A stretch of DNA of 37,415 nucleotides, from the NCBI GenBank assembly GCA_020721085.1, contig DYNJ01000002.1, positions 2,917 to 40,331 of the forward strand. Direction: 5' to 3'. The stretch's first letter is position 1; each line of letters opens with the position of its first letter. Both the position numbers and the translations under genes were made by a program. Source of the DNA: Sulfurovum sp. Its GTDB lineage: Bacteria; Campylobacterota; Campylobacteria; Campylobacterales; Sulfurovaceae. This document shows positions 1 through 32,842 of this stretch, piece after piece. The notes beneath the pieces were generated by a model. That model searched no databases, was not told the DNA's origin, and saw only the letters and a program-made list of their open reading frames with translations.

Positions 1-1
1 T

Positions 2-790
2 TTATCTAAATGTCGTTCCGCCATCGACGACCAAAGTATGCCCTGTGATCCAGCTTGCCTCATCGGTGCAGAGAAAATAGACAGCGCCCGCGATATCTTC
101 GGGCTGCCCCATCCTGTCCAAAGCTGATCGTTTGATCGTCTCGGCTTTGACCTCTTCGTAGTTGGTGAAGGCTTTGAGAGCATCTGTATCGATAGGTCCG
201 CCTGAGACGGCATTGACCCGTATATTCATCTCGCCCAGCTCCACCGCCGCGTAACGGCTCATTGCTTCAACGGCTGCTTTGTTGGTGCCGTGACCGGCAT
301 AATTGTCGATATAGATCAGATTGCCTGTGCTTGACATAGTCACGACTGCTCCTCCGCCTACCTTTGCCATCCGTTTGGCCGCCTCTTGGGTGCCCACTAC
401 AAAGGCATTGACAGTCGCAGTATAGATGTTGTTGAGGCCCTTCGGCTTGAGCCTCATAAATTTGCCATAACCGCCTACGACCGGACGGCCGTAGATCATC
501 GCGTTGGAGATAAAAAAGTCAACACGGTCAAAATCAGCATCGATAGCCTCAAAAAGCGGTTTGAACTCATCAGGTTCGAGGATATTGAGAGGATAGGCTC
601 TGGCTTTGACGGAATATTCGATTTCCCATTTGGCTGCCAGCTCATTGGCTACCGCCTCGTTGCTGTTGAAGGTAAAGGCGACATTTACCCCTTCTTGGGC
701 AAATTTTTCGGCGATCGCCTTTCCTATCCCTTTGGTGGCGCCGGTGATAACTACTGTTTTGCCTTTCATTGCAACATTTGATCTTGACAT
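2..790 (-). CDS. fabL: FabL-type enoyl-[acyl-carrier-protein] reductase (SDR family)
   Basis: This 262-residue short-chain dehydrogenase has the Rossmann nucleotide-binding motif TGATKGIG at residues 16-23. The usual SDR Tyr-x3-Lys is absent: His sits at the Tyr position. A Tyr-x6-Lys arrangement (NYAGHGTNK) is present instead, which is the signature of enoyl-ACP reductases. The stretch VNAVSGGPIDTDALK closely resembles Bacillus FabL as I remember it. The likely reaction is NAD(P)H-dependent reduction of the enoyl-ACP double bond in the last step of fatty-acid elongation, in the cytoplasm. The ATG at 790 has GGAG seven bases upstream; a second Met lies at residue 8. The gene is last in the pyrD operon, two bases after dapA. 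Homologues at this locus are often annotated only as SDR or 7-alpha-hydroxysteroid dehydrogenase, so the enoyl reductase role is an inference. Confidence 0.8.
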   Translation of the reverse strand: MSRSNVAMKGKTVVITGATKGIGKAIAEKFAQEGVNVAFTFNSNEAVANELAAKWEIEYSVKARAYPLNILEPDEFKPLFEAIDADFDRVDFFISNAMIYGRPVVGGYGKFMRLKPKGLNNIYTATVNAFVVGTQEAAKRMAKVGGGAVVTMSSTGNLIYIDNYAGHGTNKAAVEAMSRYAAVELGEMNIRVNAVSGGPIDTDALKAFTNYEEVKAETIKRSALDRMGQPEDIAGAVYFLCTDEASWITGHTLVVDGGTTFR

Positions 791-6220: not shown

Positions 6221-6253
6221 CCGCCATCCTCCTGCTTGATACGGGAATGACGA
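6221..6253. repeat. Dispersed intergenic repeat, copy 1
   Basis: On the minus strand this reads GTCATTCCCGTATCAAGCAG and continues into GGATGGCGG. Bases 6221-6245 match 21 of 25 bases of a second copy at 33078-33102. The GTCATTCC end is shared, in opposite orientation, with the ATTCC/GGAAT palindrome at 32843-32863. It resembles the short palindromic intergenic repeats of many bacteria (for example Neisseria dRS3); that comparison is from memory. Confidence 0.6.
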
Positions 6254-6355
6254 AAAGTTTTTATATGCGAAAACTGTGATTGTAGATACGATTATAACAA
6301 AGCGCCTATCTCATTTTGCTTTGCAAAGTATTGTATTTTGTGAGCGGCTCTTTTT

Positions 6356-8241: not shown

Positions 8242-8290
8242 CCGGGATAATTGCTGTAATGACTTGGTGTTCATTGGTGAATTTCTTTTG

Positions 8291-8296
8291 TATAAT
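8291..8296 (+). promoter_or_regulatory. First of two -10 boxes upstream of pyrH
   Basis: A perfect TATAAT (context TTGTATAATTC), 75 bases before the pyrH start. A -35 box is not evident. Confidence 0.5.
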
Positions 8297-8317
8297 TCGG
8301 GTTTAAACACCTTCTAA

Positions 8318-17056: not shown

Positions 17057-17331
17057 AAATATCTCCTTAAATAATTTTTATCACTTACAATTATATATCT
17101 TTTTAGCTTAATTTTTTATAATTTTCTCATGGAAGCAATCAAAGATCGGATTTCAAAATCTAGAATTTTAAGTCATTTTCTTTGATAGCAATGATACAAT
17201 GCCTAGCTATAAATTTTACAAAGTTTGAAATTTATTTGCTTTAAGAAGGTTTTTGAACCAATAATGATTATATCTAATGGTAATATATGGATTTAAAAAA
17301 GATTTTATAACAAGCCGTTGAAAGGATATTG
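17057..17331. other. 275-base AT-rich divergent promoter region
   Basis: This gap lies between ccpA (leftward) and the FIST-PAS-GGDEF-EAL gene (rightward). It holds the ccpA -10 box and several weak TATA-like sequences facing right, for example TACAAT at 17195-17200 and TATAAA at 17208-17213. I see no ORF, no repeat and no recognisable FNR or sigma-54 site. Confidence 0.5.
17090..17095 (-). promoter_or_regulatory. -10 box of ccpA
   Basis: A perfect TATAAT on the minus strand (context GATATATAATTG), giving a leader of about 26 bases that contains the AAGGAG site. Confidence 0.55.
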
Positions 17332-20256
17332 ATGCATCACTATATGATGCGATATGAGTCAAATGAAAAGCTTGATGAGTGGTTTGAATCATTTTCTGTT
17401 TGTGCATCCGATTCGGTTTTGTTTCAAATCTTCAGCGGTATTATCGATCCAAATCTATTGCGCCGTATAAGTGAAAAAATCGCACATAGTTTTCCAAATG
17501 CAACTATCATCGGCACAACGACAGCCGGCGTGATACAAGAGTGCAAGATACTTGAAAAGAGTATTGTGATATCTCTATCCGTCTTCCGGCAAACTAAGCT
17601 AAAAAGTATCCATTTGGCCGGTATAGACTCTGAGACAATGGGACGCGAAGCAGCTCGCGCTATCGTGAATACAGAGACGAAATGTGTCATTATATTTGCA
17701 GATGGTCTTCAATGTGCAGGCGACGATATACTTTATGGATTTGACAGTGTATGCTCGCATGAGATTATTATCGCCGGAGGGATGTCCGGCGATAATAATC
17801 TCATGGCCAAAACCTATTGTATCCACGGAACAGATGTATTTGAAGGAGGAGTTGTAGCTGTTTCTCTCTCATCTTCAGTCCTCAAAGTTTTTTATACATA
17901 TAATCTCAGCTGGCTTCCGATCGGCAGAGAAATGACGATCACAAAAGCAGAAGGAAATATAGTTTACGAAATCGACAATACGCCTGTTTTGGATATTTAT
18001 GCCCATTATCTAGGTGATGAAGTAATTCGCAATATGCCCGGATCTATGATCGAGTTTCCGTTGATCTATCAGGAGGGAGGCATAGATATCGCCCGCTCTA
18101 CTCTCGGTCTATCCGGTGATGGAGGAGTGATGTTTGCCGGCAATATGATAGAAGGGAAAAATGTCCGTTTCGGTATCGGAAGTCCAGATATGATCTGCAA
18201 GGGTATAAAAACAAATTATGATTTGGCTATCAGAAATCCTATCGAAGGGATATTTGTTTATTCGTGTACCGGCAGAAAGATTTTTCTTGGCAATAACCTT
18301 GAGGCAGAATTTACCCCTCTTGCAAGCATTGCTCCACTTGGAGGATTTTTTACCTATGGAGAATTTTATCATGAATCCGTTAACAATAAGTTACTAAATA
18401 TGACGACAACGGTATTGGGACTTTCTGAAACGGATGAGGTCAAAGAGAAAAAAGATATCAAAGGGTTGATAGAACATAATTCCAGATTGACAATCAATGC
18501 ACTGATGAATCTTGTCGGTGCCGTGATGAACGAAGAAAAAGAAAAACTCGAAACCGAACTAACAGAAAGAAATAACAGCATGCGACAGCTGTCGCATGCT
18601 TTTCAGCAAAGCCCGAACACCATAGTTATTACTGATATTTTTGGGAATACCGAGTATGTGAATGATGCCTTTGTCAAAACCACCGGATATACGAAAGATG
18701 AAGCAATCGGTAAAAATCTAAATTTTTTATGGTCGGGAAAAACACCGCAAAATGTGTTTGAGAATATGCTGAAACATCTTAAAAAAGGCGATGAATGGAG
18801 CGGCGAGTTTATCAATAGAAGCAAATACGGGAATGAATACATCGTAGCTGTTAGAGCCTCTCCTGTCTTTGATGCAGACGGAAGTATCACACATTATGTT
18901 GTGATCAAAGAGGATATCACCGATAAAAAAAGCTCTGAAGGCCGGATATATTATCTTGCCAATTTCGATTTTCTTACCGGATTGCCAAATCGAAAACAAT
19001 TGGAAGATCGTTTTAATCTTATGCTTTTAAAAGCAAAACAGAGCAAAAACACATTTGCCGTGTTGTTTCTGGATATTGACAATTTTAAAGAGATCAACGA
19101 CTCTTTGGGGCATGGTGTCGGTGATGCATTGCTTGTCTTGTTGGCAAAACGACTCAAAACGATATCACGAAAAAAGGATACAGTATCACGAATGGGCGGT
19201 GATGAATTTGTATTGCTATTGTTTGATACCAATCTTGAAGAGGCAGGGAAAGCAGCGCTTAAAATACTTGAAATTATAAAGCAGCCTTTCGTGATAGAAC
19301 AACACGAGTTGACCATTTCGGCCTCTATCGGTATATCTATGTATCCTATGAATGGGTTAAGTCTAGAGGTACTTTTGCAAAATGCAGATACGGCGATGTA
19401 TCACACCAAAAAATACGGACGCAATGATTATTCCTACTTTACTGATGAGATGCAGGCAAAATCTCTATACAATTTACAATTAAGCAATGCGTTGCATCAT
19501 GCTCTTGATCGTAATGAATTTTATATGGTTTATCAGCCTCAAATATCAATAAGAACAGGTCGGATCATCGGTGTTGAAGCGCTGCTGCGCTGGAATCATC
19601 CTCAGTTTGGAAATGTGCCGCCTTCTGAATTTATTCCTATTGCGGAAGCGAATGGATCGATATTGCCCATTGGAGAATGGATATTTCATAACGCGATATA
19701 TCAATTGAAAGCATGGATGGATAAGGGTTTGCCTGCCATAGTTATAGCAGTTAATTTATCGGCAGTTCAGTTTCGTCAGCGTAAATTAGTAGAAATGATT
19801 GATCAAATTCTCAATGAAGCTGATATGTCTCCGGAATATCTCGAGATCGAATTGACAGAAAATATAACGATGAATGATCAGTATATGGCAGATAGAACTC
19901 TAGGTAATCTGCATAAAAAAGGTATTCGTCTATCAATCGATGATTTCGGAACCGGCTATTCCAGTTTGAGTAATCTCAAGAAATTCAAAATTGACAAACT
20001 TAAAATCGATCAATCATTTATTTTAGATATTGACACCAATCCTGAAGACAAAGCAATCGCAGAGACGATCATCAATATGGCGCACACTCTTGGAATGTAT
20101 GCTATTGCAGAGGGGGTAGAGAATATAGAACATTTTGAACACCTGCGTGAGATGGGATGTGATGAGGCGCAAGGGTGTTATGTTAGCAAACCGCTCTCTT
20201 CAGAAGAGTTTCTGTCATTTGCACGCTCTCATTTTGCCAAGTTTATGATGAGTTGA
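17332..20256 (+). CDS. FIST-PAS-GGDEF-EAL cyclic-di-GMP signalling protein
   Basis: This 974-residue protein has FIST_N (about 35-215) and FIST_C (about 220-375) ligand-sensing domains, a short coiled-coil segment (about 395-420), a PAS domain (about 420-530), GGDEF and EAL. It has no signal peptide or transmembrane helix, so it is a cytoplasmic sensor. The GGDEF motif is intact (622-626), with an RKKD product-inhibition site five residues before it. The EAL domain (EALLRW at 749) keeps ELTEN, DDFGTGYSSL, a following KIDQSF and AEGVE. Both cyclase and phosphodiesterase activities are therefore possible. FIST domains are thought to bind small ligands such as amino acids. I preferred ATG 17332 (five bases after AAAGGA) to the adjacent TTG. 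It ends eight bases from the convergent MFS gene. Two long perfect palindromes lie within the gene. Confidence 0.95.
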   Translation: MHHYMMRYESNEKLDEWFESFSVCASDSVLFQIFSGIIDPNLLRRISEKIAHSFPNATIIGTTTAGVIQECKILEKSIVISLSVFRQTKLKSIHLAGIDSETMGREAARAIVNTETKCVIIFADGLQCAGDDILYGFDSVCSHEIIIAGGMSGDNNLMAKTYCIHGTDVFEGGVVAVSLSSSVLKVFYTYNLSWLPIGREMTITKAEGNIVYEIDNTPVLDIYAHYLGDEVIRNMPGSMIEFPLIYQEGGIDIARSTLGLSGDGGVMFAGNMIEGKNVRFGIGSPDMICKGIKTNYDLAIRNPIEGIFVYSCTGRKIFLGNNLEAEFTPLASIAPLGGFFTYGEFYHESVNNKLLNMTTTVLGLSETDEVKEKKDIKGLIEHNSRLTINALMNLVGAVMNEEKEKLETELTERNNSMRQLSHAFQQSPNTIVITDIFGNTEYVNDAFVKTTGYTKDEAIGKNLNFLWSGKTPQNVFENMLKHLKKGDEWSGEFINRSKYGNEYIVAVRASPVFDADGSITHYVVIKEDITDKKSSEGRIYYLANFDFLTGLPNRKQLEDRFNLMLLKAKQSKNTFAVLFLDIDNFKEINDSLGHGVGDALLVLLAKRLKTISRKKDTVSRMGGDEFVLLLFDTNLEEAGKAALKILEIIKQPFVIEQHELTISASIGISMYPMNGLSLEVLLQNADTAMYHTKKYGRNDYSYFTDEMQAKSLYNLQLSNALHHALDRNEFYMVYQPQISIRTGRIIGVEALLRWNHPQFGNVPPSEFIPIAEANGSILPIGEWIFHNAIYQLKAWMDKGLPAIVIAVNLSAVQFRQRKLVEMIDQILNEADMSPEYLEIELTENITMNDQYMADRTLGNLHKKGIRLSIDDFGTGYSSLSNLKKFKIDKLKIDQSFILDIDTNPEDKAIAETIINMAHTLGMYAIAEGVENIEHFEHLREMGCDEAQGCYVSKPLSSEEFLSFARSHFAKFMMS
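17758..17805. repeat. Perfect inverted repeat with 20-bp arms inside the FIST domain
   Basis: CATGAGATTATTATCGCCGG (17758-17777) is followed by an 8-base loop and its exact reverse complement (17786-17805). It encodes residues 143-158, around IIIAGGMSGDNN in the FIST_N domain. Such a stem would be very stable in the mRNA. Confidence 0.97.
18577..18600. repeat. Perfect 24-bp palindrome in the linker before the PAS domain
   Basis: AGCATGCGACAG (18577-18588) is directly followed by its reverse complement with no spacer. It encodes SMRQLSHA at the junction of the coiled coil and the PAS domain. Confidence 0.97.
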
Positions 20257-31681: not shown

Positions 31682-32791
31682 GTGACGGATAATACTTATG
31701 ATACTATCGTCATCGGTGCGGGTATAGCAGGCGCATCAACCGCCTATTTTCTGCGTCAAAAAGGACAAAGAGTGCTTGTCGTCGATCGTGACGGCATCGC
31801 AAGCGGGGGCTCCGGAGCTGCCGGAGCCTTTATCTCCCCCAAGGTCGGCAAAGGCGGATCACTGCAGCAGCTTACCAATGAAGCTTTTGCTTTTGCAGTT
31901 CGTTTTTATCTCGACCGTTTTCCGACTCTTTTTCATCAGACAGGTGTCATTCGTATCCCCAGAGATGAAAAAGATGCAGAACAATTTACTGTTTATGAGC
32001 CATACAATCAAAACAATTATACCAGGATCGACCCTGAAACTGCCCGAAAGCAGGGGGTAAAATTGCCTTATGAGAGTTTTTTGTTTGATGAAGCCGGCGC
32101 GTGCGATGCGCCACAGCTTTGCGAGGCGCTTTTGGATGGTATAGATATTGCCAGGCTCGAAGTAGCAAGTATTGAGCAAACCCCAGTTGGCTGGGAAACA
32201 GATGGTTGCAAAGCAAAAAATATAGTACTCGCCACAGGCTATAAAAACAGCCTGTTTGATATGAGATATATGGGCGTACACGGCAGATGGGGCAATAGAG
32301 GTGATTTTGTCTCAGCTCTGCCGCTAGCAGTGAGCATGCATCAGTCGATGTCAATCTCGGCAAATATTGACGGCATCATCAGACTCGGCGCAACATATGA
32401 GCTTCAGATCAAGGAGCCAACTGCTTGCGATGATAAACAAGCGCTTGGCTTGCGGGAACTTGCAGGCAGATCGGTCGATACGACGGATTTCGAGCTTTCC
32501 CAAACATATTGCGGTATGCGCTCAGGAAGCAAGGATTATGCCCCGCTGACCGGCAAAGTAGTCGATGTGCCGTGGATGCTCGAACAGCATCCTAATCTCT
32601 CCAAAGGCGCCAGAGCGCCTCTGAAATATATTGACAATCTCTATATTTGCAACGGTCTGGGAGGCAGAGGGTTTGTCATGGCTCCGTACCTGGCCAACAC
32701 ATTGGCTTCGCACATCATCCAAGGCTCCCCTCTTGATAGCAGAGCTGATCCGGATAGGCTTTTTTTGAAGTGGTGCAGAAGGGAGCTATGA
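31682..32791 (+). CDS. mnmC: FAD-dependent oxidoreductase, MnmC oxidase domain-like
   Basis: This 369-residue DAO-fold flavoprotein has VIGAGIAGAST at 10-20 and the AGAFISPKVGKGGSLQQLTNEAF segment typical of MnmC C-terminal domains. Later come YCGMRSGSKDYAPLTG and GLGGRGFVMAPYLA. MnmC's oxidase half removes the carboxymethyl group from cmnm5(s2)U at the tRNA wobble position. The N-terminal methyltransferase half of E. coli MnmC is absent, so a separate MnmD-like protein would be needed. The GTG start has AAAGGA six bases upstream. A perfect 14-bp hairpin begins three bases after the stop. Glycine-oxidase-like enzymes are the main alternative. Confidence 0.82.
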   Translation: MTDNTYDTIVIGAGIAGASTAYFLRQKGQRVLVVDRDGIASGGSGAAGAFISPKVGKGGSLQQLTNEAFAFAVRFYLDRFPTLFHQTGVIRIPRDEKDAEQFTVYEPYNQNNYTRIDPETARKQGVKLPYESFLFDEAGACDAPQLCEALLDGIDIARLEVASIEQTPVGWETDGCKAKNIVLATGYKNSLFDMRYMGVHGRWGNRGDFVSALPLAVSMHQSMSISANIDGIIRLGATYELQIKEPTACDDKQALGLRELAGRSVDTTDFELSQTYCGMRSGSKDYAPLTGKVVDVPWMLEQHPNLSKGARAPLKYIDNLYICNGLGGRGFVMAPYLANTLASHIIQGSPLDSRADPDRLFLKWCRREL

Positions 32792-32794
32792 TGA

Positions 32795-32832
32795 GGATTG
32801 TTGTGTCATTGCGTACCTTGACACAACAATCC
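32795..32832. terminator. 14-bp perfect hairpin after the MnmC-like gene
   Basis: GGATTGTTGTGTCA (32795-32808), a 10-base loop, then the exact reverse complement (32819-32832). No T-run follows on either strand, so it may act as a bidirectional terminator or mRNA end stabiliser between convergent genes, or be part of an intergenic repeat. Confidence 0.55.
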
Positions 32833-32842
32833 GCAAGAGCAG

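Follow-up and report, generated by a model that had tools for sequence, protein, structure and literature searches.

The stretch of DNA analysed here in full (37,415 nucleotides, hereafter the window) belongs to a Campylobacterota MAG of 1.58 Mb, which is 87% complete and distributed over 147 contigs. One of its genes, located at 17329-20256 on the plus strand, encodes a protein of 975 amino acids with an intact reading frame and with Pfam matches to FIST_N, FIST_C, PAS, GGDEF and EAL; its start codon is a candidate only, and the product is a predicted c-di-GMP enzyme. Roughly 430 nt into the coding sequence, at positions 17758-17805, there is a perfect inverted repeat, which the earlier note had placed within the FIST domain coding sequence, and the Pfam match indeed assigns this part of the intact frame to the FIST N domain. 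No solved structure of any FIST relative was found by sequence search. The same host gene contains, at 18574-18603, a 15-nt palindrome of 93% without a spacer (AACAGCATGCGACAG/CTGTCGCATGCTTTT), which appears terminator-like on the minus strand in the terminator scan. Elsewhere, window positions 1-55 form a short direct repeat with an identical copy at C67:2762-2816, some 100 bases further upstream on the same contig, and the segments 6242-6278 and 8249-8301, just past gene ends, have partners of 81-89% identity on contigs C11 and C76.

The inverted repeat consists of 21-bp arms and a 6-nt loop, 48 nt in total, and reads CATGAGATTATTATCGCCGGA-GGGATG-TCCGGCGATAATAATCTCATG. It was originally described as having 20-bp arms and an 8-base loop, which was correct as to its perfection and incorrect as to its size, since the innermost A-T pair had been missed. 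The palindrome lies in codon register and covers 16 codons, HEIIIAG-GM-SGDNNLM, each of them wholly within an arm or the loop: the left arm (17758-17778, plus strand) encodes H-E-I-I-I-A-G, the loop (17779-17784, plus strand) G-M, and the right arm (17785-17805, plus strand) S-G-D-N-N-L-M. In the pairing of the arms, codon position 2 stands opposite position 2 and position 1 opposite position 3, which is 'phase 2' in the terms of PMC6649704. The loop appears to keep its ancestral orientation, with its glycine present in 98/98 homologs and its methionine in 42/98. Its inversion had been expected to alter about three residues; in fact the loop comprises two codons, Gly-Met, which inversion would turn into His-Pro. 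Because the present orientation encodes the invariant glycine, inversion would destroy it, and loop inversion was rejected as the event.

The palindrome is not a product of chance, which is ruled out on three nulls. As the earlier note had supposed for perfect arms inside a gene, the expected number of perfect repeats of at least 21 bp (loop 3-60) in the window is as low as 6e-7 under the independent-base model; with the peptide fixed and the codons drawn from the window's usage, a perfect one of 21 bp would arise with a probability of 1.0e-6. Equally long stems in synonymous shuffles, which had been named beforehand as grounds for doubt, did not appear: in 400 such shuffles of the host gene, the longest repeat was of 14 bp. 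The folding energies, also proposed as a check, gave an RNA minimum of -35.2 kcal/mol, while 1000 synonymous versions lay at -9.7 +/- 4.1, with 0/1000 as low, and for 88 nt including the flanks the z-score was -6.75. The palindrome also exceeds any other hairpin of the window, as previously stated, being its longest perfect inverted repeat; the runner-up of 14 bp lies at 32795-32832. The latter forms the 14 perfect pairs of a hairpin at 32792-32835 (17-nt arms at 94%), which starts right at the stop of the oxidoreductase gene 31682-32791 and is probably a terminator.

The search was extended over 210 kb of the same genome, sampled as stretches and with the window included, and over 506 kb of Campylobacterota DNA around the homologs. 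In these sequences, no other perfect repeat of at least 15 bp was found in a long reading frame; the four other repeats of this size are all outside long frames, and so is the sole other 21-bp repeat of the scan. In bacteria, perfect inverted repeats are mostly intergenic, as surveyed in 118,019 genomes (PMC13155455).

The homolog set consisted of 98 distinct homologous FIST segments, 67 of them without gaps, with the best FIST matches being 55% identical; the named homologs come from Sulfuricurvum, Sulfurimonas and others, and it is by these that the genome is placed in the Campylobacterota. In the alignment of the homologs, a comparison recommended in the earlier note, the palindrome proved to be unconserved, with 0/98 segments carrying it. 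In the 67 ungapped homologs, 4-14 of the 21 positions are paired, with at most 3 contiguous pairs from the loop. The mean pairing of the homologs at this exact centre is 8.5 of 21, so that relatives do have an imperfect inverted repeat at the same place, as template switching would need. With the centres slid by up to 6 bases, the pairing was lower (3.7-7.8 in 15 gap-free homologs). The pairing of second codon positions in the 67 homologs, counted from the loop outward over the four inner codon pairs, amounts to 0.99, 0.88, 0.99 and 0.66. Because the FIST motif (I/V)-(I/V)-(A/S)-G-G-x-(A/S)-G-D-N is conserved around the GG turn, the second codon positions are complementary in most homologs: the hydrophobic residues before the turn (middle T) are opposite Asp and Asn after it (middle A), Ala/Ser is opposite Gly, and Gly is opposite Ala/Ser. 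Therefore, a quasi-palindrome is built into the DNA of the FIST family. Across the 16 codons, there is no gap between the window and its nearest homologs, and the perfect repeat is therefore a rewrite rather than an insertion.

As to which of the arms was rewritten, the residues of the left one are ordinary for the family, while the last codon of the right one (17803-17805) encodes Met, where the homologs have Phe (73), Leu (24-25) or Arg (1) and never Met. Among the 60 near-invariant FIST positions, i.e., those where at least 95% of the homologs have one of two residues, this Met is the only one where the window has an unseen residue. The window groups with L082, L083 and L084, and these together with L052, the nearest relatives, all have Phe at this position. 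When the outermost 9 nt of each arm are compared with L082, L083, L084 and L052, in this order, the identity is 33, 22, 33 and 44% in the right arm and 78, 78, 56 and 56% in the left, this deviation of one arm, with its unique Met, being seen in comparison with relatives no closer than 55% identity. To turn a Phe codon into that of Met, two bases or more must change, which is what would be expected from a multinucleotide event. Because of the unique Met and the divergence of the outer arm from the nearest homologs, the right arm was most likely rewritten, chiefly in its outer part AATCTCATG, with the left arm as an unchanged template. The two ATT Ile codons of the left arm, which are uncommon in the window (19% of Ile), mildly favour the opposite direction of copying; residue and codon frequencies multiplied by hand favour left-to-right copying by roughly 70:1, a ratio which hinges on one pseudocount for Met.

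The accumulation of ordinary substitutions on the family quasi-palindrome, with no copying event, could in principle lead to the same arms, since the motif begins with 8-9 of 21 pairs on average and the FIST genes are very numerous, so some of them will carry long stems; with relatives of at most 55% identity for comparison, stepwise change is conceivable. However, even with the final peptide given, the probability of such an outcome is about 1e-6, the best of the 67 homologs attains only 14 of 21 pairs, and the unusual Met falls exactly at the end of the arm, so this course of events is considered to be very unlikely. An artefact of sequencing, amplification or assembly, namely a fold-back chimera in the metagenome assembly, is a still poorer candidate. 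The assembly is fragmented, with its 147 contigs and 87% completeness, and fold-back chimeras are a known occurrence, but they normally end or duplicate a sequence, whereas here the length and frame agree with the nearest homologs, showing no insertion or truncation, the right arm retains the conserved SGDN, and the homologous sequence continues on both sides.

Among the readings compared, that of a lineage-specific quasi-palindrome conversion by replication template switching, in which the left arm was copied into the right one and the product was then carried neutrally, appears on the sequence evidence to be the probable one. A templated strand switch at a palindrome already present in a shorter form had been among the meanings initially offered, and it is this suggestion that is supported by the quasi-palindrome of the family, the absence of the perfect form in the homologs and the unique Met with which the right arm ends. 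The locus bears the marks of such a conversion, i.e., a pre-existing imperfect repeat, a short spacer, no net change in length, an aberrant end residue in one arm and no phylogenetic conservation, together with a perfect inverted repeat far beyond chance. From the comparison of sequences, we infer the template switching itself, its completion in one step, its direction and its neutrality. The sequence of steps would begin with the FIST motif, in which the second codon positions flanking the GG turn are forced to be complementary, giving an imperfect inverted repeat family-wide. In an ancestor of this genome, the replication fork may have paused at this quasi-palindrome; by folding back, or else by invading the sister strand, the nascent strand would have come to use the left arm as its template before resuming on the original one. 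This would have turned the right arm, outer codons included, into the exact reverse complement of the left, with the length and frame unchanged, and the replacement of Phe by Met would presumably be tolerated, since Met is likewise a large hydrophobic residue. The hairpin may have been retained since then without a specific function. The perfect state of all 21 pairs implies either a recent event or maintenance.

Maintenance would be expected of a functional mRNA hairpin, with selection acting on a stem that holds ribosomes back, shields the transcript or attenuates it. The predicted stem is very stable (about -35 kcal/mol, beyond every synonymous version tested), and its pairing is perfect; however, it is conserved in 0/98 homologs, lacks a terminator architecture, requires a residue otherwise avoided by the family, and its site is not repeated elsewhere in the genome except for one weak 29-nt match, which makes such a function unlikely. 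Transcription attenuation, one of the roles suggested at first, did not hold: there is no T-run after the stem on either strand (GCCAAAACC follows on the plus strand), the terminator scan called no intrinsic terminator at the palindrome on either strand, and a terminator or attenuator was accordingly rejected. Translation pausing and a protein-binding site, suggested along with it, are conceivable but gained no positive evidence, there being neither conservation nor a repeated site in the genome. A conserved structured RNA is not indicated either, with the structure absent in the 98 homologs and no Rfam family matched by the palindrome at the gathering score; the weak miRNA-precursor matches below the cut-off reflect the hairpin shape only. 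Selection could also be combined with copying, if template switching created in one step a selected coding hairpin that now tunes the co-translational folding or the expression of the predicted c-di-GMP enzyme, the price being a residue not seen in the homologs, but we regard this combination as quite unlikely.

The weak 29-nt match (L003 1501-1529, which is C125:6606-6634; 27/29) spans the greater part of the right arm together with 11 nt of the flank beyond it, and it lies just downstream of zapA on contig C125. It is what speaks for a protein-binding, recombination or mobile-element site, such as a REP-like sequence, a selfish palindromic insert of the Rickettsia type or a regulatory site. 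This origin is the least credible of all, because the palindrome has no family of copies in the genome and none in viral contigs, plasmids or phages, because nothing is inserted as compared with the nearest homologs, and because the C125 match is at the level of chance or weak paralogy and without a second arm. Apart from an 18-nt match on C125, the whole-genome pattern search with three mismatches returned no more than partial, scattered matches, and neither the exact scan of viral contigs nor the distant BLAST of plasmids and phages gave a match to the palindrome; the insertion and several copies typical of a Rickettsia-type or REP-like element were not found. As a null search with 12 kb of the window gave two matches as good as that on C125, we regard the latter as probably due to chance. 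On C125, the region following zapA has no Rfam match and is unconserved in the genus, and there is no second arm there; a decayed FIST paralog, a 6S RNA gene and a donor of the arm were considered and not favoured, and the region is possibly an uncharacterised RNA.

The favoured conversion by template switching has established precedents. In E. coli, quasi-palindrome template switching converts imperfect repeats to perfect ones (the thyA hotspot and lacZ reporters; PMC7202029), and the FIST case is similar in that an imperfect repeat in a coding gene of a bacterial chromosome would have been made perfect by arm copying; it differs in being recognised by comparison, in its natural 21-bp arm and in having no mutation rate. 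In yeast, REG2 passed from 5-bp to 16-bp arms through seven substitutions in one event (PMC8604942). Such homogenization of arms in Saccharomyces (REG2, UTP5; PMC8604942) is likewise a coding, in-frame, multinucleotide non-synonymous change in one arm, whereas the present case is bacterial, its arms are longer, its spacer is not inverted, and it comes from a single genome rather than from strains by which the event could be dated. Perfect palindromes arise by quasi-palindrome template switching in RNA genes as well (PMC8794818). The mitochondrial genes of nematomorphs contain many coding palindromes, with repeats of up to 284 bp, for which template switching has been proposed (PMC6649704); there, too, perfect repeats occur in conserved coding sequence with both arms protein-coding, but the FIST palindrome is a single 21-bp case in the second-position register ('phase 2') with no sign of active maintenance. 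The Rickettsia palindromic elements resemble it in lying within bacterial open reading frames; they are insertions (cited in PMC6649704), unlike the FIST palindrome, which has none with respect to its nearest homologs.

The palindrome is thus real, rare, non-random and well explained, and it is probably a new bacterial instance of a known mutational process, a clean natural one, whose arms are longer than those of the yeast coding cases in PMC8604942 (16 bp at most). It suggests how the DNA of a conserved protein motif can be made prone, by the motif itself, to being rewritten from its own sequence. Motifs with mutually complementary second codon positions may therefore be screened as hotspots for clustered, multi-residue changes, which would be misread as selection by ordinary substitution models.
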